In this document: positions 10,354-28,941 of the stretch, one piece after another
Layout of the letters: every line of letters begins with the position of its first letter
Position numbering within the stretch: position 1 is the stretch's first letter
Assembly: GCA_016179105.1 (NCBI GenBank)
Contig: JACOSB010000056.1
Span: forward strand, 1-64,000
Reading direction: 5' to 3'
Origin: Candidatus Acetothermia bacterium
Lineage (GTDB): Bacteria > Bipolaricaulota > Bipolaricaulia > RBG-16-55-9 > DRXL01
Length of the DNA stretch: 64,000 bases
The notes under the pieces: model-generated
The model's database searches: none
What the model was told of the DNA's origin: nothing
Seen by the model: the letters and a program-made list of their open reading frames with translations, nothing else
Program-made: the position numbers and the translations under genes

Positions 10354-10531
10354 ATGAGGCTGTGATGTGGAAACCGCCAAGACGCCAAGGTCGCCAAGAA
10401 TTTAATTGATAGAATTAACCACAGAGCACACAAAGAGCACAGAGAAAACAAAAATTAAAGAAATCTCTGTGTGCTCTGTGATCTCTGTGGTAAAATACCG
10501 TGGCTCAAAATCGTGGCACTGGGTAATCAGC
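10354..10531. repeat. Compound dispersed repeat (GCCAAG unit plus CTCTGTG palindrome)
   Basis: It starts with ATGAGGCTGTGA (10354-10365), a variant of the direct repeat at 9417 and 9580. Next comes a GCCAAG unit (10371-10403: AACCGCCAAGACGCCAAGG...), then a CTCTGTG palindrome (10417-10496) followed by GCTCAAAATCGTGGC. The GCCAAG unit reappears inverted at 25460-25488 and in part at 61315-61337. The right end overlaps the last codons of the BTAD gene and supplies its stop. Confidence 0.65.
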
Positions 10532-11362
10532 GAATTGCATCTGAGGGAGCGCCAATATCCCATTTCCCTGATGCGAAACGCTTCGGTGAAGAATCTGCTC
10601 ATAAAATTTTTGAGTAATGTCTGAGGGCTCTTGAGCAAGGCTGTGCTGTAGATGCTCGCGGCATTGCTCAAAGGCTTTTAGTGCTTCCGTTTGGTTACCT
10701 TCGAGGTAGTGATAGAACATTAGCTGCCGGTAGCAATCCTCGCGATCGGGTGCGGTACACAGGGCCCTGCGGCAGCAACCGATGGCCATCTCATAGTGCC
10801 CTAGATGGGCATAGCAGTCAGCCAAGTGCGAGAGCGCAATGAGATAAGCTTCGCGCCAACGCTCGCGCGGAGCGATGGCCCATTCTTCGTAGCGATCTTC
10901 GGCCAAGTAATCACCTTGATAGAGCTGGTCTGCTGCTTCATAGTTTCGGATAGCGTGTGTCCAGCGGCCATGGCGTTCTAGCTCGAAAGCTTTCTTGCAG
11001 TGCTCGGCGAACTCTTCTAGGTCTATCCAGCAGTGGGCGTCAGGATTGAAGTAGTAGCCTCCATGCGTAGTGAGGATGAATTGAGAGTGTTCTCTTCGTT
11101 CCAAGGTTGGTTCCAGGATGCGGCGGAGCTCGCAGACCCGGACCCGGATATCGAGCGCGGCTTTATCGGGATCTAAATCAGGGAAGAGATCGGAGATGAA
11201 TTCTTCATGGGTATAGACTCTGCCTCGCTCGGAGAAGAGCAGTTTGAGAATGCTCTTGGACTTCTCGGCGTGCCAGGTATCGGAGGAGATCAACTCTCCG
11301 TCGCGCCAGAGTTGGAACCGGCCCAGCAAATGAACTCGCAAAAGATAAATACTTTTTTTCAT
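10505..11362 (-). CDS. BTAD-domain (SARP-like) transcriptional activator
   Basis: A 285-residue regulator starting at the ATG of MKKSIYLLRVHLLGRF; an upstream TTG would add 21 unlikely residues. Residues 8-95 are an OmpR-like winged helix (KSILKLLFSERGRVYTHEEF, RVRVCELRRILEP). Residues about 110-265 are a bacterial transcriptional activator domain of TPR-like helices (HLADCYAHLGHYEMAIGCCR). Such proteins activate nearby accessory or secretion genes. It lies next to the three-gene secreted operon, now separated from it by an IS3 element, and is divergent from it. The last codons come from repeat DNA, so the C-terminus may be altered. Confidence 0.85.
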   Translation of the reverse strand: MKKSIYLLRVHLLGRFQLWRDGELISSDTWHAEKSKSILKLLFSERGRVYTHEEFISDLFPDLDPDKAALDIRVRVCELRRILEPTLERREHSQFILTTHGGYYFNPDAHCWIDLEEFAEHCKKAFELERHGRWTHAIRNYEAADQLYQGDYLAEDRYEEWAIAPRERWREAYLIALSHLADCYAHLGHYEMAIGCCRRALCTAPDREDCYRQLMFYHYLEGNQTEALKAFEQCREHLQHSLAQEPSDITQKFYEQILHRSVSHQGNGILALPQMQFADYPVPRF

Positions 11363-11723
11363 AATGCCCACTTTTTTTTCCAAGCAAGGGAAATCCATTC
11401 TAGACCTGATTCCCGAAAATGTCAAGTTTCGATTTTTGAGATGGGGAGTGCGATTGGTGATATCGACTATGGCTTAAAACGAATAAATGCTGTTTCTATG
11501 AAGGTTTTCAGGGTTAACAAAATCGTAACATGTCGCGAGTACAATTGCACTGATAGGGAGTAAATGTTACAAGGGTGCTAGTTTATTAAAAACCAACGCA
11601 TGGAAAGCCGTACGCAAAAATTGTGGAGACGTTGGGCTAAATATAATTGACCCCGAAAACTGGACCACGGGCTAAGGTGGAAAAACTGGATAAGATACAC
11701 CGAGTTCGTGGAGGATCAAGGAG

Positions 11724-12014
11724 ATGAAAAAGCCACGCAATCACTACAGTGCTGCGTTCAAGTTTCAAGTGGCCCTAGCCGCAGCCAAAGCAGACCAGAC
11801 GATCAATGAATTGGCCAGTGCCCACGGGGTGCATCCGAACCAAGTGAGCCAGTGGAAGCGACAGTTGTTGGAAGAAGGAGCCACCGTATTCGAGCGGAGA
11901 ACCGAGCGTCAGCAACGCGAGCAAGAAGCGCAAGAGATAGACCTATACGAACAGATCGGGCGACTGAAGATGGAGCTGGAGTGGCTGAAAAAAAAAGCTG
12001 CCCGACTCCCTTGA
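11724..12014 (+). CDS. IS3-family transposase OrfA
   Basis: A 96-residue protein with the helix-turn-helix typical of IS3 OrfA (AFKFQVALAAAKADQTINEL, VHPNQVSQWKRQLLE), followed by a leucine-zipper-like helix (EIDLYEQIGRLKMELEWLKK). It binds the element ends. Its last codons contain a run of nine A followed by G (about 11988-11997), a -1 slippage site. Shifting there joins OrfA to the OrfB frame through KKLPDSLEVK and produces the active OrfAB transposase. An AAGGAG ribosome site precedes the ATG. Confidence 0.92.
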   Translation: MKKPRNHYSAAFKFQVALAAAKADQTINELASAHGVHPNQVSQWKRQLLEEGATVFERRTERQQREQEAQEIDLYEQIGRLKMELEWLKKKAARLP

Positions 12015-12015
12015 G

Positions 12016-12882
12016 GTGAAACGGACCATGATCGAGCTGAACCGTCCCCAGATCAGTGTGCGGCGCCAGTGCGAATTGGTCGGGCTGAACCGCTCCACGC
12101 TCTATTACGCACCCGCGACCGAAACACCGTTCAATTTGGAACTGATGCGGCGGATCGATCAGCAATACACCAAAACGCCCTTTTACGGCTGGCCGCGCAT
12201 GACGGCGCAATTGCAGCGGCAAGGCTATGAGATCAATCACAAGCGAGTGCAGCGCTTGATGCAACAGATGGGCCTGCAAGCGATCTATCCCAAGCCTCGC
12301 ACTAGCCAAAAGGGAGCGGAAGTGACGATCTATCCCTATCTATTGAAGGATCTGGAGATCGTGCGATCAAACCAGGTCTGGAGCGCGGACATTACCTATG
12401 TGCCGATGGTCGGCGGGTTCATGTACCTGGTGGCGATCTTGGATTGGTTCAGTCGCTATGTGCTGGCCTGGCAACTATCCAACACGTTAGAAGGCTACTT
12501 TTGTGTGAAGACGCTGGAGCAGGCCTTGCGTACAGAGCAACCGGAGATTTTCAACACTGACCAAGGAGTGCAGTTCACCGCGCGATCGTTTACCTCGACA
12601 TTAGAGGTAGCTGGAGTGCGCATCAGTATGGATGGGCGAGGGCGGGTGTTTGACAATATCTTTGTGGAACGGTTATGGCGAACGGTCAAGTATGAGGATA
12701 TTTATCTGAACGACTATGCGAGCGTGCCGGCTCTGCAAGCCGGGCTACACCAGTATTTCACCTTTTACAACCAGGAACGGTTGCACCAGAGCTTGGGTTA
12801 CCGGACTCCCGCGGAGGTGCATTTTGACGGGGCGGAAGCCGGAGCAAAAGTCCACCTTAATTTTCGTAATTCGTGGTCTTGA
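12016..12882 (+). CDS. IS3-family transposase OrfB (DDE integrase domain)
   Basis: A 288-residue catalytic subunit made mainly by frameshift from orfA. The HTH_21 region (TPFYGWPRMTAQLQRQGYEI) precedes an rve DDE core. The first Asp is in WSADITYVPMVGG, the second in FNTDQGVQFTA, and the Glu in NIFVERLWRTVKYE. The C-terminal signature YNQERLHQSLGYRTPAEV is complete. All catalytic residues are present, so the element may still move. The internal start GTG at 12016 is weak, which is usual for IS3 OrfB. Confidence 0.93.
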   Translation: MKRTMIELNRPQISVRRQCELVGLNRSTLYYAPATETPFNLELMRRIDQQYTKTPFYGWPRMTAQLQRQGYEINHKRVQRLMQQMGLQAIYPKPRTSQKGAEVTIYPYLLKDLEIVRSNQVWSADITYVPMVGGFMYLVAILDWFSRYVLAWQLSNTLEGYFCVKTLEQALRTEQPEIFNTDQGVQFTARSFTSTLEVAGVRISMDGRGRVFDNIFVERLWRTVKYEDIYLNDYASVPALQAGLHQYFTFYNQERLHQSLGYRTPAEVHFDGAEAGAKVHLNFRNSWS

Positions 12883-12916
12883 CTTTGGGGTCAACCATAA
12901 AACCTGGGAGGTCAAT

Positions 12917-15900
12917 ATGAATGGCAGTTTACTCAAGAGGAAGAAAGGTTTGAGTGGCTGCAGCACCAACTCGAGAGTTATCAATCCATCGATTCGCATT
13001 TTCCTAGCGTTCATCCTAATCCTTTGCACATCTGCTGGCATTAGCTTTGCCTTTAGCTTCGCAGGAGGAAAAACTTCGAAGGGAGACACGTGCCTTCCTG
13101 CTAATGAAATAGTACGTTGGGCGAATAATGGGGGCAGTCGGGAAAAGGGGGCAACTAATTCGTTACTGAGTGTGGCTTTACCTGACAAGAGCGTTCAATC
13201 TGACAGCTATAAGCAACGTGGGTTAGCCGGAGGAATTGAAATTTCAGTCGATACTAATTTTTGGGAGCAGCTCCAAATGGCTTTCCCAACAGTGCCAGGT
13301 GAGGAGAAACCAACACCACAACAACTGAGACAAGCAATGCTTGGAGCGCTGCAAGACTGGGAAACAGCTTCAGAGGGAGTATTACGCTTCTATTTCGTAG
13401 ATGATAAAATTCTAGCGAAAAAGGATTATTCATCCGATGGGATAGGACGACCAAATGGTGCAGAAGTTGATCTCTTCACCCTATCTCCACTAGGTGACCC
13501 AAATATTAAAATCCCTGAAGGCGCGAATGCTGTTACGCGTCTCTGCGCTTGGAGCAATTGTCAAGGTACAGGAGAGAATCGACCGCTAGCCACCAATGGG
13601 GAGAGGCAACCTGGAGAAGCTATTGTATCCGCTGACATCTTTTTCCGGACTGATAAGAAGAACTACACTTTATTAGAGACTGGGGGGACAGACCTTATTG
13701 CTGTCTTCAAGCATGAAATCGGCCACGCCTTAGGTTTGGGCCATACGGATGAATGTATGAACTCTAAGAATAAACAGGGAGTGGTAACCGTCTTGAAGAA
13801 TGCGAAAATTGACAGTAGTTTTAAACCTTGTGATATTGACAAAAAAAAGGACTTGTATAAGCAACTCAAAGCGCGCGATCCCGATTCATCTGCGCACGTT
13901 ATGAACTCCATGTCGACTCGAACTATAACTGAAGATGACCGAGATGCGATACGTTTTCTATATCCTAAGTGTCCTGCTACTCTAGAGTTATCAGAGCCGA
14001 TTAGAAATAGAACAGGGGTGTCAGAACCCATCAATAATCAAGGTAGAGTTATGTTGACGACCCTCTCCCCATTGCCAGAAAATATTATAACTAGCTACGC
14101 TGCCAACAAGGTTAGCACAGGGGCGGGGACAGGAATTGTTGGGCCACCATCTGCCTTTTCACTCCCCGTTAGTCTGTTTTCTCTGGAGACGACAAGTGCA
14201 CTATTAGATCTGCCAGTAAAAGTGACACGGCTGAGTATTGTAGATGAATCTGCATTGATAGACATTAAACTTACCTCTTCACTAAGGAGGCTAAATATTC
14301 CGGGACTGAACTTCACTTCTGTGTTTGGCGATGAACCTCTTCTTTCAGATCCTCCTCCCAATAATACGTCAGACGCGGACACCGAATTTTCTGTGAAGTA
14401 CATCTACCCTAGTCGCCTAGATATCGGTGGTGACATGGGTCCAGAAGGAAAACCTTTCAAAGGTTCAATTTGCGTTCCTTTTGCTAACATTCTGAAACCC
14501 ACTAGTAACATGCGTTTTCATTGCAAGCCGGAGCAGGTTGAAATTCGATTAGGCGTTGATGGGTCTTTCACATTCAGTCTCGATTATAAGAAAGGTGACT
14601 TTCTTCTAGGAGGGCTGTCTCTCCCGGAAGTAGACCTCTTCGGGACAGGTATCAAAATCTTCGCCTCCAATGTAGCTGTGGACGTATCACAGTCTAGTAA
14701 TATCTGGGAAGAAATTAGGAATAATCTCTCAGATGTTGAGACCGTAGCATTCGATACTGAGTTTGCGAAACTCAAGAAGGCTTATGGAGACGGCTTAGAT
14801 GACCCAGCCTGGAAAGGTGTTTATATTCAGCAAGCCTCAGTCAACCTAAAAGATTTCATCGGCCTAGATTTTCCAGGGGTAGATCTGAAGGCACATCATC
14901 TGATCATTGACAACAATGGCTTCACTGGAGTCCTGAGCCTTCCTGCAGCTCAGATCGCCAACAATGAGACGGATAGGCAGATTAGCATCGGTGGCTTCAG
15001 TGTGACTCTTGCGGACATCAAGAGTAAACCAGCCATAGAAGTGATTTTCGTGCGAAATACCTTCAACGGTGCCTTTATACGAGGTAAGCTAGAACTTCCA
15101 TTTAGTGGCTCTCAGTCAATACCTATTGAATTCAGTTTTGACATGGATGGCAACTGGTCTGCTCAAGTAGACCCTGATACGGTCCTGAAGATCTGCTTCC
15201 CTAAATGTGAAGCCGAGCATATTCGCTTGTACTTACAAAAACTCCGTTTGGGTACGAAGTCAGAGGTGAATCCAGAAACGGGGAAAAAGCCCGTAGTGCT
15301 GCAAATCGATGGTAAAGTCAGCATTGAGGGCATCAAGATCGGAGGCAAAGATCTCTTCCCGGACCCGCTCACCTGTGGAAGCAAGCCGGAAGTCAAGGGT
15401 AATTCCGACTTTGAACAGTGTGGGTTAGTTAACTTCTCCGGCCTAGAAATCACCTTTAGTTCTCCTGGCAAGCTAGGCACTTCCCAGGGAGTTGGTGGCT
15501 GGCTAGATCTACAAAAGGCAGGATTGGTTGATTTCGGCGACTTCCCCTTCTGCATTCAAAAGATTGGCTTGGGCTGGGATCCGAGTGGTGAAAAATGGTT
15601 CGGTTTAGGTGGTTACTTCAATATTGGAGAGGATTTTGGTGTTGAGGCTACAGTCAACGAGGTCCGTTTCCGTTGGGACAAGCTGGGTGATCCTGGATTA
15701 AAGCTCGAAGTCATCGACATTGCCATTAAAGCCCATTGGAAAGACATCGTTGATATGAACGGCAGTATCAGGTGGGATCAAAATGAGTTCCGTGGACAGA
15801 TTCAGGCCGGCATCGACCCACCGGGCATCGCTGTTGGGGTCACTCTGATCATCGGCCATAGAGAAGTAAATGGTCGGCCTTATCGATTCTGGTATTTTGA

Positions 15901-18589
15901 TGGCGATCTGGAATTACCCGAGGGCATTCCTCTGACTATAGGCCTCTCAATTTACGGTTTCAAAGGAGGGCTGGGGTATAATGTAAGACCCGAGTTGGTT
16001 GATAAAAAGCCAGAAGGCCATCCTGACGGCGTTTTCGATGATGTGGTCTGGAAAGACGAAAAAACAGATAAGTATGTCTTCACTGTCGGGCTTACATTGG
16101 GCGATAATGCTGACGGGACAACTTTTATCACTGATTTGGCATTCTTAATCGACCCATCTGGTCCAGTTCTGATTTTGCAAGGCAAGGGGTGGATTATGAC
16201 TCCTCGGCTGGAACGGTTCTCCGAGCCATCAACCCTGGATGCCATCATCAGCTATGACGGCAGCAAGCAGGCCTTCTTGGTAGCAATTACAGGAATCTAC
16301 TCTGTCAAAGATCCCCAAATAAAGGATGGAGTTACGGTTGCGGATCTCCATGGGACCTTTGAGATTTTGGAAGCCCCTGGGGAGTGGCATATCTATTTCG
16401 GGCGGCGGGACCCTAAGGAGAAACAGAATGCGGTAGTGGCATTGCCAGATGTGTTCGGCGATAAAATTAAGGCCAGCGGCTATTTCATGATGGGGTCAAA
16501 GGTGCTCTTTCCTCCTGAGATGCCCGGCCCGCTCTCCCCAGGCATCTTATTTGGGGCCTTCCTGAGAATTGACGATATAGACAAGGATTTCGGCATCGGT
16601 CATGTCTCTTTCAGAGCATATGCGGGTGGAGAACTAGTTGTCGGACCTAATCCTAAAGACTTTTGGATTGCCTTGGCTTTGGGAGGGCATCTCAGTCTTG
16701 AGATTGCCGGAGTCGGGCTTACCGTCGGTTTGGATGCCACTATAGATGGTATGTTCCCCAAACCTCAATTTGCGAGGGCCAGCATTCATGTTCAAATTAG
16801 CTTATTCTTATTTGATATTGACAAGACGGTGTTACTTTGTTTTATTGGGGACGAGAACTGTGAAGACTCAAGACATCCAGATTTCAGTAATCCGTTAGAG
16901 TCCGTCGAGTTGAATTTCCCGATCAAGAATTTGCGCGCGGGCATAAAGCAGCCGAAGGGCCTGGTTCTCACGCAGCATGAGCCATTTGCCGATAAGATCA
17001 CTTCTCGACACCCTGAACTACCAAAACAGGCCGACGGCTCCACCGCCACGGTCATGGAACCGATCTCTCTTAACCCGCGATTCGCGCTTAACTTCCAGCG
17101 CGCTATAGACGGACGCAGTGAATTCAATGCACTTGGCGATATCCAAGCCAATGAAGGAGCTACCAAGCGCGAGGACAAGGCCGGGGAATGGATCGCGTGG
17201 TATCGACTGAAGGATGTCAAGCTTCACACAACACACATCATCGGAATACCTGATCGATTGGGGCCCTCAATTGACTCCCGCTGCGGAGTTCTGGATAATC
17301 CTCCATTAACACTGGTCGGACATTGGGGCCGTCTTCTTCAACTAAATGACGAAAACGAATTAGTCAATAGTGAGCCAACAGTGAATGGGCCGAGAGATGC
17401 GGGAGACATACAGACTATTCAAGAGCAGAGACGTCAGACCCTCTTCTTCAACGTGGCTGCTAAGTCGGATGACAAAGATATCCGATCTGATTTCAGTTCA
17501 GACTCCAGTTTGAAAAATATTCCCAGACCTTTCCAGCCTAGGGCACTTGAGCCTGACAAGCTGTATCAGGTTAGAGTGACGAACCGCTGGGAGTGGCAGA
17601 AAAATAATGGAACTTCTCCTGGCAATGGCAGCGATGAGCTCGTCTTTTGTTTCAGGACGGGCCCTCCGCCAGACGATTTGAGTTCATATGTTGCCTGGAC
17701 ACAGCCGGCTGATCAAGCAGCGAATGCCTTCTTGGATGAGCCGATCTGGGTGGTCTTCAATACCGCCGGGATGGAATCGGTCTATGCAAATCCATCTCAA
17801 CCCAGCGGTCGATTCCCAGTTATTGAGCTCTATAACCAAGACAATCAACTCATCGCCAGTAAGGTAACACCTCTAAGCGAATCACTGCTGGATGGACAAA
17901 TCCTGGGGTGCGTAGAAGGTTTACCCGCAGTCACTGCGAGCTTGTTTGGCCAACTACAAAAGCAATGTCGATCCCCACTGCAACCTCGGAGCCGTTACTT
18001 TGTCTGGCTCGCCCAAACGGTTAGATTCGGTGACTTAACAGTCTCTGTGCCCGTCTTCAAGTTTCAGTTCAGTACCTCGGCTTTCGCTAATTTCTCCAAC
18101 CTAATGGAAGCTTCAAGGCTTGGTGGACAAGGAGTGGAGGCGCTCGAGGTTCAGACTGCTAGTGGAACAACCTCGCTCCCAACGATCAACCCAGAAGAGT
18201 TCAGGCCCATACTCCCGGTACCCGAGCCAACAGGTCAGTACATCGTAGTTAAGAGTGCTGAACCGATCTTCTTGGGAACCACACCAAAAGATACCGCTAC
18301 GGGTGCTACGCGGAAAGTGACCTTCCTGCTCTGCCAAGGGCGAATTCACACCCGAGGGGATTGCGTTACGCAGATCAGCGTGGATAGGCTCTCCCCGGAT
18401 CAGGAGACGACGAACCTCTTTGTCCCCAAGAGTCCATTGACACCTAACCAAGAATACACGCTGCTTTTTGAGTACGAGGCTGGTGTGCTCAAGGATAGGA
18501 TTCCCAGCTTGGATTTTGCTAGCGAATCCGATCTTGCGCCGTTCGTAGTTAAACAGACAGTCGGACTCGTGTTTAAAGTGAAGCCTTAG
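12917..18589 (+). CDS. Giant secreted protein with matrixin-like protease domain
   Basis: The start is ATG 12917 after GGGAGG; the frame runs on upstream into the IS3 element but that part is not expected to be used. The 1890-residue product has a signal/anchor helix (residues about 28-48). A zincin domain follows with HEIGHALGLGH (ligands His266, His270, His276, catalytic Glu267) and a Met-turn near Met329 (SAHVMNSM). About 1200 residues of beta-rich, Gly-rich, non-identical modules come next (KGGLGYN, GGHLSLEIAGVGLTVG). The C-terminal region (about 1600-1890) looks like bacterial Ig/Big-type domains. The beta-rich part resembles in texture the DUF6603-type proteins linked to contractile injection loci, but this is uncertain. 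It is first in an operon with 18609 and 21443. Role: probably surface or secreted protease/adhesin. Confidence 0.7.
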   Translation: MNGSLLKRKKGLSGCSTNSRVINPSIRIFLAFILILCTSAGISFAFSFAGGKTSKGDTCLPANEIVRWANNGGSREKGATNSLLSVALPDKSVQSDSYKQRGLAGGIEISVDTNFWEQLQMAFPTVPGEEKPTPQQLRQAMLGALQDWETASEGVLRFYFVDDKILAKKDYSSDGIGRPNGAEVDLFTLSPLGDPNIKIPEGANAVTRLCAWSNCQGTGENRPLATNGERQPGEAIVSADIFFRTDKKNYTLLETGGTDLIAVFKHEIGHALGLGHTDECMNSKNKQGVVTVLKNAKIDSSFKPCDIDKKKDLYKQLKARDPDSSAHVMNSMSTRTITEDDRDAIRFLYPKCPATLELSEPIRNRTGVSEPINNQGRVMLTTLSPLPENIITSYAANKVSTGAGTGIVGPPSAFSLPVSLFSLETTSALLDLPVKVTRLSIVDESALIDIKLTSSLRRLNIPGLNFTSVFGDEPLLSDPPPNNTSDADTEFSVKYIYPSRLDIGGDMGPEGKPFKGSICVPFANILKPTSNMRFHCKPEQVEIRLGVDGSFTFSLDYKKGDFLLGGLSLPEVDLFGTGIKIFASNVAVDVSQSSNIWEEIRNNLSDVETVAFDTEFAKLKKAYGDGLDDPAWKGVYIQQASVNLKDFIGLDFPGVDLKAHHLIIDNNGFTGVLSLPAAQIANNETDRQISIGGFSVTLADIKSKPAIEVIFVRNTFNGAFIRGKLELPFSGSQSIPIEFSFDMDGNWSAQVDPDTVLKICFPKCEAEHIRLYLQKLRLGTKSEVNPETGKKPVVLQIDGKVSIEGIKIGGKDLFPDPLTCGSKPEVKGNSDFEQCGLVNFSGLEITFSSPGKLGTSQGVGGWLDLQKAGLVDFGDFPFCIQKIGLGWDPSGEKWFGLGGYFNIGEDFGVEATVNEVRFRWDKLGDPGLKLEVIDIAIKAHWKDIVDMNGSIRWDQNEFRGQIQAGIDPPGIAVGVTLIIGHREVNGRPYRFWYFDGDLELPEGIPLTIGLSIYGFKGGLGYNVRPELVDKKPEGHPDGVFDDVVWKDEKTDKYVFTVGLTLGDNADGTTFITDLAFLIDPSGPVLILQGKGWIMTPRLERFSEPSTLDAIISYDGSKQAFLVAITGIYSVKDPQIKDGVTVADLHGTFEILEAPGEWHIYFGRRDPKEKQNAVVALPDVFGDKIKASGYFMMGSKVLFPPEMPGPLSPGILFGAFLRIDDIDKDFGIGHVSFRAYAGGELVVGPNPKDFWIALALGGHLSLEIAGVGLTVGLDATIDGMFPKPQFARASIHVQISLFLFDIDKTVLLCFIGDENCEDSRHPDFSNPLESVELNFPIKNLRAGIKQPKGLVLTQHEPFADKITSRHPELPKQADGSTATVMEPISLNPRFALNFQRAIDGRSEFNALGDIQANEGATKREDKAGEWIAWYRLKDVKLHTTHIIGIPDRLGPSIDSRCGVLDNPPLTLVGHWGRLLQLNDENELVNSEPTVNGPRDAGDIQTIQEQRRQTLFFNVAAKSDDKDIRSDFSSDSSLKNIPRPFQPRALEPDKLYQVRVTNRWEWQKNNGTSPGNGSDELVFCFRTGPPPDDLSSYVAWTQPADQAANAFLDEPIWVVFNTAGMESVYANPSQPSGRFPVIELYNQDNQLIASKVTPLSESLLDGQILGCVEGLPAVTASLFGQLQKQCRSPLQPRSRYFVWLAQTVRFGDLTVSVPVFKFQFSTSAFANFSNLMEASRLGGQGVEALEVQTASGTTSLPTINPEEFRPILPVPEPTGQYIVVKSAEPIFLGTTPKDTATGATRKVTFLLCQGRIHTRGDCVTQISVDRLSPDQETTNLFVPKSPLTPNQEYTLLFEYEAGVLKDRIPSLDFASESDLAPFVVKQTVGLVFKVKP

Positions 18590-18608
18590 AAGAAAGAGCT
18601 GAACGATT

Positions 18609-21446
18609 ATGAAAAGACAACTCGGTGTAATCGCACTTTCCTTGATGACGCTTCTGGGCATGTACTCGACAAACAACGCTCTAATGGGTACCTCATCATT
18701 GATTCATCAGCTTGAACTAATGGCACTACCCGGTACGAATCAAATCGCCTTGCGCTGGGTCTTCATACCGGGAGCAGCCCCATTCAACCAATTCCCCGAA
18801 AAATTCCGCTTGCTCAAACGAGAGCGCGGCAACACCACCTGGGAAGAGATCACACCTTTATCACCTTTCGCTTTTACACTACCCAAAGAGGTGCTGTTCG
18901 TTTTAGATCAACTGGAAGTGGAAGATCGTCTTAAGGCGCTTGAAGGACGTCCTTTGAATGCCGAGCAGAAATTACGCCTCCGAAACATGTTGGCTTTCAC
19001 GCACGATATTTTCTGCTTGATTGAAGCTAGCTTAAGCAATCGTAGTCTACAATCTTGTCAAATTAAATCCAAAGGGGAAATAGAGATCAAGAGTACTGAT
19101 GATGGACGCAAAATCGCGACCGAATTGTTGCTCCTAGCATCATTTGATCCCTTAATGGCTGAAGTACTGGGGCTGTATTTCACAGATATAGCCATCAGTG
19201 CGGGAAAGATTTATGAGTACCAAGTTGAGGGGCTTTGGACCGGCTTTACAGAGCGTTCTACTGTTGTCGTGGTGCCTACGTCTCAAGCACCCATACTTCC
19301 ACGCCCCACAGGATTGACCCTTACACAGAAAAACGAGATTGAATTTAAGGAAGCAAAAGTCACTTTTTATAACGATCCGACTGAGTCCAAGCGTACACCG
19401 AAACCAATCCCACTATCCACGCCGGCTGTGCAAGTCAGTTGGGAGGGCTGTCCAACACCAAGAGACATCCCGTCGTTAGTGCCGATAGGTTACCACATCT
19501 ATCGCTCGGAAACTGCGCTTGGAGGCTATCAGCGAGTCAATGTCTTCCGAAACCGAGTAAAAGAGGAACAGGCGTTTCCTATCATAGCGCCAAAGAATTG
19601 TCAAAAACCCGAGTTTCTCGATACGGACGCTAATCTAGTTCCTTTGAAGACCTACTATTATAAATTGGGATCGATCGATTGGTTCGGTCGAGAGACCGTC
19701 ATGCGTGATGAAGATGCTGTGGCGATCACGTTACAGAAAATCCCCGTGGACAGACTCGTACCTCCGACCGCTGTATGCATCACAACTCCTGGCATCTTCA
19801 CAGAACCTGCCATGGGCGACTGCTTGCCGAAGACGGAGCGCCAACCCGATGGGACACTGAAGATGGTAACTGCTCAGCAGGCTCCACGCACGGATGAATT
19901 GAGAGTGCGGGTGCGGTGGGAGTGGACTCAACGGCAGCAAGAGGTTATCGAGCCCAATCAATTCAAGATCAAATGCTCCCGCAGCCCCTTCGTGCAGGAT
20001 AACGCTGATTGTCCTGATTCGGGACTGATGGAGCAATTTGTCGCCGTCAGCCTCTCAGGCTGCAGTTCAGCTCCTTCATCATCATCAGCCTGCCGACAGA
20101 CAATACCAGCCAGTGTTGACAATCCTGAAGCCAAGTGGATTTACTATTCCAAAGAACTCACGCTGACCCGCAAGAATCAGGATCCGATCACCCGTTACTA
20201 CTTTCGGGTTTCTACACTCAAAACCGGGAAACCTGAGAGCGATCCTTCTGGTGCAGCCATTGCCCAGGTGGTAGATAACACGCCGCCGGACGTGGCCTGC
20301 ACAGATGCTTTTACAGGACCCCGAGGTCCAACCCAGATCGATCCCACCCCGGACTGGGAGGGTAAACTCAATGTGCGTATTACCTGGCAGAGCCCACCAG
20401 GGCCCAATAACAATGATATACTCGGTTACTTCATCTATCGCGCAGCTGACCCTGATCCGACTAGGCCAGATATCGATACCTATGCGCGCCTAAATAAGGA
20501 GCTTATTCCGGGCAATGTGTACGTCGACAAACTGGAAGCCCGAGCTCGCAATTCCTTCTACTACAGGTTGAAAGCCATCGATAAAGCTGGGAATATTAGC
20601 GGCGATGGCTCTTCGGGGCTTTCGTGTGTAAGCGCACCAATTCGCTTGCCGACAGCTCCCGCAGCCCCTGTGATATTGGGTGTTAGTGGCGGCAATCTGA
20701 GCATCTCGATCACATGGCCTCCAGTCGCCGAAGATGACGGACGTGAGCCAGACCTCAACGAGCCAGGAGGTTACTTCGTGGGCTATCATGTCTATCGAGG
20801 TGCAAGTGCAGAAGAAGTGATGAAGTCCACCAGCCCGTTATCTTCCCCACGTCCTGATAACATTATCACCAGAGCTATGGCAGGAATAATTGACCCGAAG
20901 TTCAGCATCACTCTTAACGAGAAGGGTTATATCGTGTATACAGACAAAACTGTAACAGATCCAGATAAGACATTTTTCTACGTCGTTGAAGCCGTTAAGA
21001 AATCCAGGCTTACTCCGCGGGATCTGCCATCGCGATCGAAGCCACTAGCTGGACGAGCTTATGACATCACTCCCCCTGCAGCGCCTGAGAATTTACAATT
21101 GGCGCTGAATGGCGAAGGTACCGTACTGACCTGGACCTGGAAAGCCACTGACTACCTGGATGTAGATTCGGTTGGTTTCTGGCGACGCCAGAACGATGAA
21201 TCTTCACGAATGATCCTGCCTCTTTTGAGATTAGAGAGGGCTGCGGATCACAGCGTACTCAAGGATGTAGCGGGTGTCTACAAGCTCGAGTGCAAGCTCA
21301 GCGCTGATCAACAAACAGCCAGTTGCACCTTTATTGACCGGAAGGTCGAGCGTGGGATGGGTATTACATACGCTTACAAGATTCAGGCTTACGACCGCAA
21401 GGGCAACTCCATCTTCAGCGGTGAGGTCTCCAAGCAGGTACCATGA
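18609..21446 (+). CDS. Secreted fibronectin type III-like repeat protein
   Basis: A 945-residue exported protein with an N-terminal signal sequence (LGVIALSLMTLLGMYSTNNA). A helical insert (about 90-160) is followed by at least five fibronectin-III-like modules. These are recognised by recurring strand signatures such as VSWEGCPTP..GYHIYRSE, KTYYYKLGSIDWFGRE, RITWQSPPG..LGYFIYRA, FYYRLKAIDKAGNIS and YKIQAYDRKGNS. No catalytic motif is visible. It follows the giant gene by 19 bases and overlaps the vWA gene by four (ATGA), so the three are cotranscribed. A scaffold or binding role with its neighbours is likely but inferred. Confidence 0.75.
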   Translation: MKRQLGVIALSLMTLLGMYSTNNALMGTSSLIHQLELMALPGTNQIALRWVFIPGAAPFNQFPEKFRLLKRERGNTTWEEITPLSPFAFTLPKEVLFVLDQLEVEDRLKALEGRPLNAEQKLRLRNMLAFTHDIFCLIEASLSNRSLQSCQIKSKGEIEIKSTDDGRKIATELLLLASFDPLMAEVLGLYFTDIAISAGKIYEYQVEGLWTGFTERSTVVVVPTSQAPILPRPTGLTLTQKNEIEFKEAKVTFYNDPTESKRTPKPIPLSTPAVQVSWEGCPTPRDIPSLVPIGYHIYRSETALGGYQRVNVFRNRVKEEQAFPIIAPKNCQKPEFLDTDANLVPLKTYYYKLGSIDWFGRETVMRDEDAVAITLQKIPVDRLVPPTAVCITTPGIFTEPAMGDCLPKTERQPDGTLKMVTAQQAPRTDELRVRVRWEWTQRQQEVIEPNQFKIKCSRSPFVQDNADCPDSGLMEQFVAVSLSGCSSAPSSSSACRQTIPASVDNPEAKWIYYSKELTLTRKNQDPITRYYFRVSTLKTGKPESDPSGAAIAQVVDNTPPDVACTDAFTGPRGPTQIDPTPDWEGKLNVRITWQSPPGPNNNDILGYFIYRAADPDPTRPDIDTYARLNKELIPGNVYVDKLEARARNSFYYRLKAIDKAGNISGDGSSGLSCVSAPIRLPTAPAAPVILGVSGGNLSISITWPPVAEDDGREPDLNEPGGYFVGYHVYRGASAEEVMKSTSPLSSPRPDNIITRAMAGIIDPKFSITLNEKGYIVYTDKTVTDPDKTFFYVVEAVKKSRLTPRDLPSRSKPLAGRAYDITPPAAPENLQLALNGEGTVLTWTWKATDYLDVDSVGFWRRQNDESSRMILPLLRLERAADHSVLKDVAGVYKLECKLSADQQTASCTFIDRKVERGMGITYAYKIQAYDRKGNSIFSGEVSKQVP

Positions 21447-22771
21447 GTCTACGTCGGAGATTGAAAATACTAGCTATAACAGCTGCTTCGAGTCTTATTT
21501 TGGCACATGGAGCAAGCATCAGCTCTGTTGCGCAAACGCCATCCCAAGGAGCGAAAACCTTCTTCTGTGGCGTGCATGCAGGAGCCAATGTCGCCATTTT
21601 CATACTGCGCCAAACTGTCGTGAGATCAGCAATCTCCGGGAAGCTAGCAACCTTCTTTGATCCGCCAACGGTGAAAATCCTGGAATTAAGCTTTGCTGGG
21701 ACTGCCGTGAGGATTGGGGATCAATCGACCGGTGAACTGGCATTCTCTATCGAAGGTCCAGCCACTGGTCATTTCGAAGCAGATACTACAATTATGGAAA
21801 TTGATTTCAAGCTGGCACTGACATTGACTAATTTCCCTAGCCTTCTTCCATCCAAGTTCAATGTCAAGTTCCGTGGCAAGCTGGATCTTCGCACGAAGGC
21901 AGTATTGGGCAATATTACCGGAACGGTACCTATAGGCACTCCAGTCTTGGGCGAGGCTGAGCTGATCATGCCCATTTACTGTACCCCTGGCCCTCCTCGT
22001 CCTGTCGATGCGTTCTTTCTGGTGGACTTGTCCGGAAGCTACAGCAATAAGCTTGCGGCCTTCAAGAATCATGCACGCCGTATTGTGAACGACTTAACCT
22101 CACTGGGAGTCAATGCTCGTTTTGGGTTAGGCACATTCGTTGCATATAAGGACTTCGGAGCATCCGGCATCTGCCCTGACTGTCCTTATAGCCGTATCCA
22201 GGATCTGACTTCAGATCAGGCACTTATCCTTTCAAAGATTAATGGCCTATCAACGATAGGAAGAGAGGGAGAGCAATTAGAGACGCAGTTGACTGCTCTT
22301 TTTCAAGCCGCAACAGGTGCTGGACAACCTGAACAAGGTATACCGGCCGGATTGAGCGCCAGCTTTAGGGTAGGCATCAGTGCCCTACATATTGTCATTC
22401 TTTATACAGATGAAGCATTCACGCTTAAGGGTCAATTTAGAGGAGCCAATGATGCTCCCAATAATTTCCCTGGGCCTGACTTCCCTGAAGTACTTTCAGC
22501 TCTCAATAGTAGCGCCGAAGGAATTAAGGTTATTGGCATTCTTGGCAGAGAACCCGACCGCCCTGATATCACAGCCCTGGGCTTAGCAGATTTGCAAACG
22601 GTAGCCCTTGGCACATCTACATTTGCTCCTACCGATGGGGTCGATTGTGATGGAGATGGGTTAGTCGCGCCATCATCTGATGATCTTGCTGGTGGTATGG
22701 CTTGGGTTTGCTTCCTCTCACCCTCAGGAGCAGGCGTTGCGCAAGCTATCATCGCAGCCGCCTTGCCATAA
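21443..22771 (+). CDS. Secreted von Willebrand A / integrin-beta-like protein
   Basis: A 442-residue exported protein. The signal peptide is about residues 1-30 (ILAITAASSLILAHGASISS) and a beta domain covers about 35-180. A vWA domain from about 188 has an intact MIDAS core DLSGS (Asp195-Ser199) within VDAFFLVDLSGSYSN. The following ARFGLGTFVAYKDFG and cysteine-bearing CPDCPY loop resemble integrin beta chains. A second metal-contact strand is in ALHIVILYTDEAF. Such domains bind protein ligands through a divalent metal. Translationally coupled to the FnIII gene. It is last in the operon, with no clear terminator before the IS remnant. Confidence 0.8.
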   Translation: MSLRRRLKILAITAASSLILAHGASISSVAQTPSQGAKTFFCGVHAGANVAIFILRQTVVRSAISGKLATFFDPPTVKILELSFAGTAVRIGDQSTGELAFSIEGPATGHFEADTTIMEIDFKLALTLTNFPSLLPSKFNVKFRGKLDLRTKAVLGNITGTVPIGTPVLGEAELIMPIYCTPGPPRPVDAFFLVDLSGSYSNKLAAFKNHARRIVNDLTSLGVNARFGLGTFVAYKDFGASGICPDCPYSRIQDLTSDQALILSKINGLSTIGREGEQLETQLTALFQAATGAGQPEQGIPAGLSASFRVGISALHIVILYTDEAFTLKGQFRGANDAPNNFPGPDFPEVLSALNSSAEGIKVIGILGREPDRPDITALGLADLQTVALGTSTFAPTDGVDCDGDGLVAPSSDDLAGGMAWVCFLSPSGAGVAQAIIAAALP

Positions 22772-23155: not shown

Positions 23156-23464
23156 ATGTCCCGTACAAGAATTCCTGGACTCATTCCCGTCAATCATCGG
23201 GCCAAGGTGAGGCAAAGAGTAGGGATGTTAGCGGAGTTGGGACCCACTCTCCCTTTTCCCTACTCCAGCCAGGTAGAAGGAGGATTGCGTGAGCTACGGG
23301 CAAAATATGGACATGCGCAGTATCGGGTGCTGTACTATGGCGACAGAAACAGAGCGTTTGTCCTGCTTCATGCATTCCTCAAAAAGACAGAAGAGAGCCC
23401 AGAGCAAGAGAGAATCTTGGCTTTGCAGCGTCTGAGGGCAGATCAACAGAATAAGGGAGCTTAA
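23156..23464 (+). CDS. higB: HigB-type toxin (Gp49/RelE superfamily)
   Basis: A 102-residue toxin of the phage-derived Gp49-like group. The family signature GGLRELRAKYGHAQYRVLYY, then RAFVLLHAFLKKTEESPEQE, is complete. These RelE-fold proteins cut mRNA on the ribosome. The N-terminal 35 residues are a little longer than average. An AAAGGA ribosome site precedes the ATG. The gene is followed after 12 bases by the XRE-type antitoxin, the toxin-first order characteristic of higBA. Confidence 0.88.
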   Translation: MSRTRIPGLIPVNHRAKVRQRVGMLAELGPTLPFPYSSQVEGGLRELRAKYGHAQYRVLYYGDRNRAFVLLHAFLKKTEESPEQERILALQRLRADQQNKGA

Positions 23465-23476
23465 GGAGGTAAAACA

Positions 23477-23812
23477 ATGCCCAAAACCAAATCATCAAGC
23501 CGTGCGATGAAGTCTGCAATGGTGACGCAGAAGCAAGTGAACCGATACGAAGAGTACATGAAAAAACAGTTCGAGAACTCCGAATTTCGTAAAGTCTATG
23601 AAGAAGGACTCGAAGCACTGCGAGTGGGAGTTAAAGTCGCCCAACTTCGAGAGAAACATGGACTAACTCAGACACAGCTCGCGGCTATGTTGCATACCAG
23701 TCCATCCGTCATCTCGCGGATCGAAAACGGTGAAAATGTAGAACTGAAGACTCTACAAAAGATTGCTCAGGCGCTGAATGCCAAGCTCAAAATAGAGCTC
23801 GTGCCAGCTTAA
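23477..23812 (+). CDS. higA: HigA-type XRE antitoxin
   Basis: A 111-residue antitoxin. The N-terminal extension (residues 1-55) is basic and helical. Residues about 56-108 form a helix-turn-helix (LREKHGLTQTQLAAMLHTSP, VISRIENGENVELKTLQKIA). It neutralises HigB and represses the operon. AAGGAGG lies eight bases before the ATG. The tail LNAKLKIELVPA is the dimerising strand typical of the family. Confidence 0.9.
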   Translation: MPKTKSSSRAMKSAMVTQKQVNRYEEYMKKQFENSEFRKVYEEGLEALRVGVKVAQLREKHGLTQTQLAAMLHTSPSVISRIENGENVELKTLQKIAQALNAKLKIELVPA

Positions 23813-23833: not shown

Positions 23834-23980
23834 TTTAAGAGAGACAGCCGCTGGCTCGAGAAGCATGACGAGCGGCTGGTCAAGCAGTACGGCGATCAGT
23901 CTATGGCCGTGATTCAGTGGGCAGAAGCGCACACTCCTCCGCCCGCTTCACGACTTCAGAGACCTGAATGCCACTCTTGA
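23834..23980 (+). pseudogene. Small gene remnant, DUF5678-like
   Basis: The open frame has no start codon and reads DSRWLEKHDERLVKQYGDQS then MAVIQW. This resembles the core of small DUF5678 proteins (WLE.H..ELV..Y...W.AV). After that it runs into DNA that on the other strand encodes the end of the Bax1-like gene. The two reading frames collide at about 23900-23920, marking a recombination junction in which both genes were cut. Confidence 0.4.
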
Positions 23981-24722
23981 AAAAGAATACGGGCAAAAAG
24001 TCAGCCATCCGCACCCCGTACCGGCGCGTGAGATGGAAGAGGCTCGCCGGCCCATCCAGCTTCACTTCGTACCCCGGCGCGAGCGGCCGGATCTCATGCA
24101 TGAGGCGAAAGAGTTTGATGTACCCGAAGATCGTGTTGAAATGGTCGAAGATGCGGACGGTCAGCTCGCTCGCGTCATACAAGAGCGCCTGCGCTAACGC
24201 TAAATTGTATCGCTGCAAGAGCCAGGGAGGGTCGGTGACTCGATGCCGACGATCGGTCGCGAACTGAGCCATGACGTGGTTTTCCGCGAGGTCAGTATAC
24301 ATGCTCTCTTCGACAGCTTCGGGGGCGAGCCCCAGCTTCTGGGCAACCGCGTCATAAATCTCCTCAGCTTGGGTCCGGTGTATCAGCGAGAGCCGCTGGA
24401 CAATCGGGTAGCGTTGATTGGCGAGGGCGAAGATCTCTTCACGAGCCTGCGAAGGATCTAGAGAAGACTTGATCACAAAAGTACATTCGTCCTCGAGGAG
24501 CTTGGCCAAGCCTCTGATAATTTTGTAGTCAGTATCGCCCGCAGTCAGCTGCTCCAGCACTTTTTCTAACTCTTTGCGTCGTTTGCCCCGATGCTCTTGA
24601 TAGAGCTGAATCAGCCGCTGGGCCAGCTCTAGATATTTTTCGTCAGTTTCATCGATGAAGGCGGGAGTGATACGATCCGAGTGCGGGGAAAGTCTGCGGC
24701 GGCCGAGGTCAGCAGTGAGCAT
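23901..24722 (-). pseudogene. Truncated Bax1-like (DUF790) nuclease
   Basis: The 273 residues match the N-terminal and central part of DUF790/Bax1 proteins (MLTADLGRRR, then HRTQAEEIYDAVAQKLGL, MYTDLAENH, LLQRYNLALAQALLYDASEL, GPASLFHLTRRYGVRMADFL). Bax1 is the partner nuclease of the XPB helicase. Family members are usually about 400 residues or longer, and the C-terminal catalytic part is missing here. It is replaced by a short tail read from the antisense of another remnant. It begins two bases after the helicase remnant's stop. Judged non-functional as a nuclease. Confidence 0.8.
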
Positions 24723-24724
24723 AG

Positions 24725-25376
24725 TCAGCGGCTCTCGCCGGTAGCGCCCCGTCTTCGCTCAGAGACATAGCACTCCACTGTGTCCTTGGCGATCACTTCG
24801 TAGAGGCGCGCCAGTTTGTCATCTGGGGTCTTACGTAAAATGCGACCCAACCGTTGGACATACTCTCGTTGACTGGCCGTACCGCTCAAGATGATCCCCA
24901 CGTTCGCTTCGGGGACGTCGATGCCCTCATCTAATACATGAGAAGTTACGAGCATCGCGTATTCGCCCGTCCGGAATTTTTGCAAGACGGCGGTGCGCTC
25001 TTTGGTCTTGGTCTGATGGGTGATCGCCGGGATCAAAAATTTTTGCGAGATCTGATAAGCGAACTCGTTGTTGGCTGTGAAAATCAAGACGCGGGATCGA
25101 GTCTCGGCTACAAAATGCTGCTTGAGCAGGTGATCCAGGGCGAGCAACTTTCTCTGCCAAGGTGGGGACGACCACGAGCGTGCTGACTTGAGTCGATGCG
25201 ATGGCCCGCAAAGCTAAATACGTTTTCCCCGCGCCGGTGGGCAAGACGATCGTGCCTTTGCGTCCCTGCTGGAGCCAAGCAGAGAGTGCTTCTACTTGAT
25301 AGGGACGGGGCTCGATCTCCAGCGCGCTGTGGAGTTTTAGCCGACGGAAAGCGCGGGCACCGTCTTCTGCTTCCAT
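24725..25376 (-). pseudogene. Internally deleted, frameshifted XPB-type helicase
   Basis: Two frames make up one SF2 helicase of the XPB/Ssl2 type. The first (25376 to about 25150) holds RPYQVEALSAWLQQ, the Walker A motif VLPTGAGKTYLALRAIA and VVVPT. The second (25147 to 24725) holds VLIFTANNEFAYQISQK, VTSHVLDEGIDVPEANVGII and REYVQRLGRILR (motifs IV-VI). The segment between them, with the DEAD/DEVH box and motif III (about 200 residues), is missing and the frame changes at the join near 25150. XPB unwinds DNA for repair together with Bax1. Here both partners are broken. Confidence 0.85.
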
Positions 25377-26202: not shown

Positions 26203-28941
26203 TCAAAACGCCTCGCTGCCCACACCAGCATAGAGGACCGGACTAGACGCACCTATCCCGTACGCAAGACCGAGGCGCACATTTATGGGAACAGCATAGC
26301 CAACGACGAAAGAGAAGTTGAGCTCGCCGCCCACGCTGATCTTCCACGGAGCTGATATTAACTTGGCACCCGCTGCGCCCACATCAGCAAACAACGCGCC
26401 GTGCACATCGTCAACAAAGAAAGGCCAAAGCCCGATGCCACGCTCGATCGAGAGAATTGGGAAACGATATTCTGCCTTGCCGATGAACGCTTGCGCCCCA
26501 GAAAACTCGCCGAGCTTAAAACCTCTGAGCGCAAATCTGCCTTCCTCACCTCCGATCTCGAAAGCGGTTACTTTATCGCTCAATCCCAGGGCAGAGCGAA
26601 CTGAGATCGAGTGCGCCGCTTCCAATGGCAATCGAAGCACATCTCGGAATTCTAGTGTCAGTTGGTTGTGCCAGTAAACATCCCCGGTGCTCGTCGCGGT
26701 CGCGGCTCCGAGAAAAATTTTCCATTCGTTCTGCCACAAGTCAAACCCGGAGCGATGCGCCCAACTTAATTCAGAACCCACGCGATGTGTGATCCGATCG
26801 ACCTCAGACCGATGATAAGCGAAGGTTAAACCGATTTGATTTTGCAATGAGTTCACAAACGGCAGCACGATCGACGCACTCTGGAAAGATTCTTGCAAAG
26901 GCTTACCCAGCTCGCGCAAATTTTTCTCTAACTCAAATGAGAGTATCGGAAGCGTCTGATGGTTTTGATAACTGAAATGATAGAAGGGCAAGAGCGCCTT
27001 CCAGTCAAAGCCAAAGCTAAATGCGTACTGATGCTGGAGCAGCGCGTCTTGCCCAAAGGTCCAAAAGCCAAATTGAGTTTGGTTCATCACGGGCAACCAG
27101 AATTTTGGTGAGAGTGAAAGCCTTGCGTCATAGGGATGAATTGGATAACTCGTCTGCGGAAAGCCGTTCCATGAGGGGAATGTGTCTTTTACGTTCTCGG
27201 CGGGTTTCCATGACTCCGAATCATAGGCCATCGTGTGTACGCCGTATCCGTCGGCGCCATACTCGACGAAAGCGATCGTTTTGCCATCGGGCGAGACGTT
27301 GGGCTGAAACGCTCCCGTGAGCACATTGGACACGCGCTGCAGCGTCTCATCCGAGACTTGATACGCATAAAGATTGTACACGCCACTACGATCAGAACTG
27401 AAAAGAACGAAGTTCCCATCGCGCGACCACGTGGGGTCCAGATCAACGAACTTGTCGAGCGTGAGCGCGGTAAGCTCCCCACCGTTGCTGCTCATCAAAT
27501 AAATATCTTGATAGCCGCCGCGTCGCCAGATCGAGAGCGCGATCTGTTGACCATCGGGCGAGATCGCGAACGAATGGATGAAGTAGTCATTGAGCCCAAA
27601 CTCTTTGAGCGGAACGATGTGGTTCGTGCGTCGGTCCAAGATCGCGAGCATCGGTCCGTCATCGCCCCACCGATATTTTCCCAGCAAGATGCGTTGCCCA
27701 TCGGGAAAGAACTCCGCCTTGTAGACGCGCTCTCCGCGGGTGAGTCTCGTCTCTTGCTTCATTGAAATATCATACAGATAGAGATCGCCCATCAAGACCG
27801 TCTTTTCATTGGATTTGTATTTCTCCAGATCAATCTTGGTGTACAGAATTTGTGTTCCGTCGGGTGACCAACTCGCGTTGCTTCCTCGCGCGAGCCTCGG
27901 ATGATCGCTTTGCCCATCTGAAGAGACGGTGCGCAAACCGCCCACGCGCGATGCATCGCGATGTGCATACATAATTTGCTTCCCATCAGGAGACCACCGA
28001 GGCTGATCGCTCCAATAGCCAAGCTTTGTGAGAAGCTGACTCGATGTGACACCTTCAGTTCGGATATTTTCGATCTGCTCAGGAAATTGCTCGGCGCACC
28101 ATTTCTGAAAGTTTTGATAAATCTCATTGACTGAAAGCCTAGTGATGCGCTTCAAGGTTTTTTCGAGATCAATTAACGCAAATAAATCACTCCCAAGCTG
28201 TTGGTCAATCTTCTTAATAGTCTCATTCCCGAAGCGCTCTTCTAAATAGCGCACGAACCAGGGCCCGATGTCGTGCCAGAGCATCGACGGCAGCATCCAT
28301 TCACGGCGCGAATATAGAGAAACCATTTGATCCAAACGAGGAAATTTTTTCTCAAGGGCCATCGTGCGTAAATACATCGCATCTCGAGCATTGTTCGCGC
28401 GAGACTCTCCCAAATGTTTATATTTTTCGTATGCTGCAATGCCTTCGACAAAAATCTGTGGCTTCCAGTTGGGCATGACCATGCGCCCAAAGATATTGCG
28501 TAGAGCTGCCGTGCTCCCATGAACTCCGTCAATGTCTACGATATAAGTATATTCGTGAAAGATGGCCATCTGCATCCAGCTCGCTAAGCGCGGGTTGGCC
28601 CAATCAGCTATATTTGCCGAAGAAACGTAGAGAACGATCTTGTTGCTTATCGGATCAGCATAACTATTAGCGAAATCGGTCGCATCGGCGATTACTATCT
28701 CAGTCTTATCGGGAGGAGCGTAGCCGAACTCGGCGCTCAAAGTTTTATAAGAATCTTCAGCTTCGACGGCTGCTTCTTGCGCCAGGCCGTCGAGCCCTTC
28801 GTGAAAATTTATGCGAAAGTGCGGCGTCTCGATTGTTTGCCATTTGAGGGTTGGATCGAGCTCGACTTGAGGTTGCGCAAACGTATCAAAAGACAAAATG
28901 CTTGCGATTAATAGCCAACCTAAAAACAGAAGACGAATCAT
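26203..28941 (-). CDS. Gluzincin-like / TolB propeller / beta-barrel protein, inactive paralogue
   Basis: A 912-residue envelope protein in three parts. After the signal peptide (LFLGWLLIASILSFDTFA), residues about 30-290 form a gluzincin-type peptidase domain. Its zinc motif reads HEYTY (His129, Glu130, Tyr133), so the second His ligand is lost, although the downstream Glu166 in FVEGIAAYEKY remains. Residues about 315-600 are a TolB/WD40-like propeller with repeated WSPDGKQI, PDGQRILL and SPDGKTIAF strands. Residues about 640-912 are a surface-antigen-like barrel (ALRGFKLGEF, EYRFPILSIERGIGLWPFFV) ending in Phe, as for BamA-folded outer-membrane proteins. Paralogue of the gene at 30306. Probably binds rather than cuts. 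Confidence 0.8.
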   Translation of the reverse strand: MIRLLFLGWLLIASILSFDTFAQPQVELDPTLKWQTIETPHFRINFHEGLDGLAQEAAVEAEDSYKTLSAEFGYAPPDKTEIVIADATDFANSYADPISNKIVLYVSSANIADWANPRLASWMQMAIFHEYTYIVDIDGVHGSTAALRNIFGRMVMPNWKPQIFVEGIAAYEKYKHLGESRANNARDAMYLRTMALEKKFPRLDQMVSLYSRREWMLPSMLWHDIGPWFVRYLEERFGNETIKKIDQQLGSDLFALIDLEKTLKRITRLSVNEIYQNFQKWCAEQFPEQIENIRTEGVTSSQLLTKLGYWSDQPRWSPDGKQIMYAHRDASRVGGLRTVSSDGQSDHPRLARGSNASWSPDGTQILYTKIDLEKYKSNEKTVLMGDLYLYDISMKQETRLTRGERVYKAEFFPDGQRILLGKYRWGDDGPMLAILDRRTNHIVPLKEFGLNDYFIHSFAISPDGQQIALSIWRRGGYQDIYLMSSNGGELTALTLDKFVDLDPTWSRDGNFVLFSSDRSGVYNLYAYQVSDETLQRVSNVLTGAFQPNVSPDGKTIAFVEYGADGYGVHTMAYDSESWKPAENVKDTFPSWNGFPQTSYPIHPYDARLSLSPKFWLPVMNQTQFGFWTFGQDALLQHQYAFSFGFDWKALLPFYHFSYQNHQTLPILSFELEKNLRELGKPLQESFQSASIVLPFVNSLQNQIGLTFAYHRSEVDRITHRVGSELSWAHRSGFDLWQNEWKIFLGAATATSTGDVYWHNQLTLEFRDVLRLPLEAAHSISVRSALGLSDKVTAFEIGGEEGRFALRGFKLGEFSGAQAFIGKAEYRFPILSIERGIGLWPFFVDDVHGALFADVGAAGAKLISAPWKISVGGELNFSFVVGYAVPINVRLGLAYGIGASSPVLYAGVGSEAF

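Follow-up and report, generated by a model that had tools for sequence, protein, structure and literature searches.

A matrixin–DUF6603 chimera heads a three-gene operon for apparently exported proteins in a Candidatus Acetothermia genome

Introduction

DUF6603 (PF20248) is a protein family for which we know of no described function, and our literature search found no paper naming it. Its members, such as Streptomyces longwoodensis WP_331724248.1 and Mycetohabitans endofungorum WP_212667342.1, are giant proteins whose genes form runs with other very large ones. Here we describe a giant gene of the same habit in a Candidatus Acetothermia bacterium, found within a window of 64,000 nucleotides (the whole stretch of DNA analysed), whose product has a homologous beta-rich core of ~470-500 residues. 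The Pfam HMM itself misses this core, the giant carries a matrixin and a signal peptide that none of 12 other DUF6603 proteins sampled has, and its gene neighbours are different.

The matrixin part shares the HEXXHXXGXXH motif, the Met-turn and the overall domain with bacterial matrixins (M10, PF00413), but whereas the lone matrixins of the phylum are frames of 360-495 aa, it forms only a small N-terminal part of 1890 aa. Two further genes follow the giant gene, the second of which encodes a protein with a vWA domain like that of integrin beta-6 and beta-3 (PF00362). As a gene arrangement, the locus is comparable to a four-gene operon with DUF6603 that occurs in Streptomyces, Nocardia, Rhizobium and haloarchaea, in which the DUF6603 gene likewise lies inside a same-strand run of giant genes, but the three other families of that operon are unrelated to the gene 2 and gene 3 proteins, as profile comparison detected no homology between them. 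We conclude that the architecture is real and unusual; it adds a variant to a family not yet characterised and does not amount to a machine of a new kind.

Results and discussion

Layout of the operon

Three intact genes lie in one same-strand run at 12917-18589, 18609-21446 and 21443-22771, with spacings of 19 and -4 nt. The coordinates, lengths (1890 aa for the first product) and spacings given in the first-pass annotation of this DNA all proved correct when the sequence was read again. At ~48% GC, a frame of 1890+ codons is not a product of chance. The -4 overlap together with the 19-nt gap suggests that the three genes are co-transcribed, and all three products, the giant, the FnIII-like protein and the vWA protein, begin with a signal-peptide-like segment. 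No terminator-like site was found between 22600 and 23500, and reading the three proteins by eye revealed no anchor (sortase motif, C-terminal TM or SLH). The features of the operon are as follows.

12917..18589, + strand: gene 1, giant of 1890 aa, chimera (signal peptide, matrixin, DUF6603, C-terminal region that looks Ig-like)
12917..13054, + strand: N-terminus of the giant, resembling a signal peptide; its hydrophobic core starts at residue 28
13214..13984, + strand: matrixin domain of the giant, residues 100-356
14741..16804, + strand: region collinear with the Mycetohabitans DUF6603 domain-containing protein (tblastn), residues 609-1296
15443..16924, + strand: divergent DUF6603 domain proper (hhalign), residues ~843-1336
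17699..18106, + strand: C-terminal conserved block 'PADQAANAFLDEPIWVVF...FKFQFSTSAFANF', residues 1595-1730, common to this DUF6603 branch
18609..21446, + strand: gene 2, apparently exported tandem FnIII-like protein, 945 aa
21443..22771, + strand: gene 3, 442 aa, apparently exported vWA protein of integrin-beta type with DLSGS at residues 195-199
21629..21988, + strand: N-terminal beta domain of the vWA protein, residues 63-182, one paralogue (G000:C100:30797-31168)

The giant joins a matrixin to a divergent DUF6603 core

The N-terminal hydrophobicity of the giant, 2.61 over 15 residues, was the highest among 13 DUF6603 proteins, the others reaching at most 1.65, and neither a zincin motif nor an obvious signal peptide was present in the 12 other members sampled. 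The intact zincin site HEIGHALGLGH that had been noted earlier was confirmed at residues 266-276 (13712-13744), with a Met-turn, HVMNSM, downstream at residues 327-332 (by reading), and the domain, which is complete, scored above the curated PF00413 cut-off (25.8 bits against 24). Over ~250 residues it resembles lone secreted matrixins in four genomes of the phylum, with E values of 1e-14 to 1e-21.

Behind the matrixin part, residues 609-1296 matched a Mycetohabitans plasmid protein annotated as DUF6603 (~24% identity, E 7e-22) in a tblastn search of 7.3 Gb of plasmids. Relatives chained outward from this protein were found in Azospirillum oryzae, A. thermophilum, Paracoccus aminophilus and Rhizobium tropici, and together with the giant and the Mycetohabitans protein they form one family, with leave-one-out HMM E values of 1e-26 to 1e-62 (1e-31 for the giant itself). 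The assignment of the giant's beta modules to DUF6603, which the first-pass annotation had put forward for checking, failed by the direct route and held by a more sensitive one. The PF20248 HMM gave no match to the giant at E<=1, nor did it match the family of the giant and its relatives at cut-off; one true DUF6603 member scored 395 bits with it. In contrast, profile-profile comparison of the giant's family with seven proteins annotated as DUF6603, taken from Streptomyces, Nocardia, Rhizobium and haloarchaea, returned a probability of 99.1% and an E value of 1.8e-18 over 469 columns. On the basis of this result, a divergent DUF6603 domain is placed at residues ~843-1336, and the core belongs to a divergent branch of the DUF6603 superfamily, not being a PF20248 member by cut-off. 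The earlier view that the giant is something other than an ordinary cell-wall or S-layer protein holds. The C-terminal block is shared most clearly with Mycetohabitans and looks Ig-like.

Because its matrixin part matches lone matrixins of the phylum and its DUF6603 part was found in no other of the 100 phylum genomes searched, the giant is a chimera of a lineage-type matrixin and a DUF6603 part. It is the first handle seen here on the use of the DUF6603 core, which in this variant comes with an identifiable catalytic domain and an export signal.

The FnIII-like and vWA proteins

The description of the gene 2 product as a tandem FnIII-like protein stands through its similarity to other FnIII proteins, but in a weaker form than claimed: its fn3 (PF00041) score was 18 bits, below the curated cut-off of 25, and the similarity is generic. 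The protein resembles the FnIII partner encoded beside the Mycetohabitans DUF6603 gene. Its candidacy as a specific DUF6603 partner was rejected as unproven, an unrelated Salinibacter FnIII surface protein scoring as well or better against the single-partner model. An N-terminal LRW motif of four other partners was likewise not significant in gene 2, 97 of 1000 shuffles being as good.

The gene 3 product carries, as first described, an integrin-beta-like vWA domain with an intact DLSGS metal site, and it scored 28.1 bits with Integrin_beta (PF00362), above the cut-off of 24.8. The later acidic motifs REGEQLE and TDE follow in the order expected of integrin beta (by eye), although the alignment is confident over only ~50 residues, and unlike in integrin beta, the vWA domain is preceded by an unnamed beta domain with a paralogue in the same genome. 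Metal-dependent ligand binding is predicted for the vWA domain. The surroundings of the paralogue (L016 6300-7424) encode other secreted proteases and beta proteins.

Conservation of the trio and its proposed working

Conserved synteny of the three genes, to which the first-pass annotation had looked as support for a multi-protein system, was found neither among 100 genomes of the phylum nor at the DUF6603 loci read. None of the giant, gene 2 and gene 3 occurred complete elsewhere in the 100 genomes, the sole additional match to genes 2 and 3 being the same-genome paralogue of the N-terminal beta domain, and no relatives were found in the other genome contigs and viral contigs scanned. The matrixin domain occurs on its own, without DUF6603, elsewhere in the phylum. 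Since the trio is not conserved and the matrixin stands alone, a pattern that the annotation itself had named as counting against a system, the idea of a three-part system is weakened.

Our preferred reading, held tentatively and with a little less than even confidence, is that the locus encodes a horizontally acquired set acting together: a DUF6603 scaffold that is secreted and carries its own protease, along with an FnIII-like partner and a vWA protein of integrin-beta type. The giant would be exported by Sec, its DUF6603 core would form a long beta-rich scaffold, and the matrixin-type zinc protease in front of the core would cut protein. The FnIII-like protein of gene 2 would bind or dock to the scaffold, or extend it, and the vWA protein of gene 3 would bind a ligand via a divalent metal ion. 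Probably located at the cell surface or outside the cell, the three together would grip a protein or surface as their target and cut it, and the purpose might be adhesion, foraging on extracellular protein or matrix remodelling. Contact or joint action of the three proteins is proposed from their layout, shared composition and shared export, and the activity of the protease, its substrate and the location of the complex are likewise predictions from sequence.

Alternatively, the three may be co-transcribed secreted proteins that work independently: one a protease trailing a long C-terminal extension, one an FnIII protein of a generic kind, and one an adhesin built on a vWA domain. This is consistent with the lack of any homologue of the trio as a unit and with the generic FnIII similarity. 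It is also in line with the absence of relatives of the vWA protein among the tested neighbours of 13 DUF6603 proteins, and with the genome encoding other secreted matrixins and beta-domain proteins separately. However, the 4-nt overlap, the common low GC3 (see below) and the apparent export of all three proteins point away from independence, as does the habit of DUF6603 genes of sitting in giant-gene runs, and we regard independent action as somewhat unlikely.

Origin of the operon and its upstream region

The GC3 of the three genes is 0.43-0.52, compared to 0.648 ± 0.042 for 16 other genes of the window, and the operon looks foreign because all three are low. The simplest reading of the composition and of the chimeric giant would be that the operon arrived by transfer and was joined to a matrixin of the kind found in the lineage; alternatively, the two parts could have been fused already in the donor. 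Two features lie upstream of the giant gene.

10505-11362, - strand: BTAD/SARP-type regulator, divergent from the operon
11642-12899, + strand: IS3-type insertion element, orfA and orfB, inverted repeats TATRRTTGACCCC, 3-bp AAA target duplication

The ends of the IS3-type element were set by comparison with other copies in the same genome, and AAA is present on both flanks. Its right end lies 17 nt before the ATG of the giant, with a Shine-Dalgarno-like GGGAGG kept between the element and the start codon. No sigma-70-like promoter was found on the + strand ahead of the giant, and neither an outward promoter nor an IS-derived hybrid promoter was found. Given this lack of an outward promoter and the element only 17 nt from the start codon, the operon may be poorly expressed in this strain. 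A stronger version, in which the operon was transferred in, later lost the link to its promoter when the element inserted and is now silent, would account for the position of the insertion, its AAA duplication, the missing outward promoter and the low GC3. We consider it unlikely, however, as the frames of all three genes are unbroken over 9.8 kb with their motifs preserved, the GGGAGG is retained, and read-through from the transposase is possible.

Other copies of the element in the genome are full, partial or end copies, 83-91% identical, and several lie at contig ends; the element likely breaks the assembly.

The BTAD activator reported upstream of the operon is a real gene, but it is encoded on the opposite strand, and the IS3-type element, which the first-pass annotation passed over, intervenes. 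At least 41 BTAD genes were counted in this 3.7 Mb genome, compared to 0-7 in nearly all relatives; a single other genome of the order, of 4.1 Mb, has 28. Because of this number and the insertion in between, the regulator's putative tie to the operon is weak.

DUF6603 gene clusters elsewhere

DUF6603 genes elsewhere, on plasmids of bacteria and haloarchaea, are grouped on one strand with other very large genes, and the members of such runs often overlap by 1-4 nt. As the search space comprised plasmid records and one phylum, the spread seen here is a lower bound and plasmid-biased. Three families of neighbours repeatedly accompany DUF6603 in the classical branch, across Streptomyces, Nocardia, Rhizobium and haloarchaea; most of the neighbours scanned have no Pfam name, and one has an FG-GAP match. 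This run of DUF6603 and three other large families, shared between bacteria and haloarchaea with pairwise E values down to 1e-95, is one for which we found no paper. It was seen on plasmids of Streptomyces, Salinigranum, Rhizobium and Nocardia (loci L034, L037, L038, L040, L041 and L042), and a partial run was seen in Halalkalicoccus and Halobellus (L039 and L043). These gene sets look like an undescribed system, and because bacteria and haloarchaea share them as a conserved group of giant genes, the family can be put to the test in hosts that grow in culture.

The hydrolases encoded near other DUF6603 genes differ from locus to locus (PLD-like, PG-binding, S8 peptidase and PhoD-like), and some of the loci have mobile-element neighbours. 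Both observations would suit a delivery or conflict system, in which the DUF6603 core is a carrier and the hydrolase an exchangeable payload against competitors or hosts. Nevertheless, no secretion or contractile-injection gene was recognised when the ORFs of the window were read, or in the feature lists of the DUF6603 loci, PADLOC and PHROGs gave no match for the three operon proteins or for two other DUF6603 giants scanned, and the giant has a Sec-type signal of its own. Such a delivery system is thus improbable, and the suggestion of injection in the first-pass annotation finds no support. A broader proposal is that DUF6603 is the hallmark of a multi-protein system of giants, undescribed so far, that moves horizontally, is spread over bacteria and haloarchaea and works through an exchangeable hydrolase. 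At the present locus the system would be secreted, with a matrixin fused to the DUF6603 scaffold and an integrin-like vWA protein for targeting. We regard this proposal as doubtful.

Sequence properties of the DUF6603 core

Two-faced (amphipathic) beta periodicity was pronounced in the core of the giant (z 5.4 against shuffles in a hydrophobic-moment test) and in all DUF6603 members tested (z 4.2 to 7.0), but it is not diagnostic, because a tandem-Ig control and the N-terminal domain of the vWA protein reach similar z. Runs of alternating hydrophobic residues showed no excess in the core (13 against 13.1 by chance), and no internal repeats were detected in it. A profile search found no sequence relative of the core in the PDB, and single-sequence AlphaFold2 models had pLDDT values of 33.5 for the core and 31.0 for the vWA protein, too low for fold comparison. 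That the core forms a hydrophobic groove (lipid-carrying, AsmA/VPS13-like) or a barrel instead of a plain scaffold is very improbable, since the periodicity that suits it recurs in those controls and neither the PDB search nor the models provide a fold to compare.

Other genes in the window

Just 3' of the operon, at 23157-23812 (+), lies a toxin-antitoxin-like pair, RelE/HigB-like plus helix-turn-helix (by reading), followed by a helicase-like gene at 23901-25376 (-) that is split into overlapping frames (24927-25376, 24725-25147 and 23901-24722) and is perhaps broken. A second stand-alone secreted matrixin is encoded at 48742-49512 (-); it scored 71 bits with PF00413 and is not close to the giant's domain. 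A zinc protease-like gene at 214-1384 (-), with HEFGH and M6-like by eye, is split over two overlapping frames, which suggests a frameshift or an assembly error. A glucose/sorbosone dehydrogenase (7833-9428, +) has a C-terminal extension of ~170 residues of unnamed type. Finally, two related exported proteins at 26203-28941 and 30306-33110 (-) each have a PD40-type propeller, confirmed by Pfam in the first, and an apparent C-terminal outer-membrane barrel (by eye).
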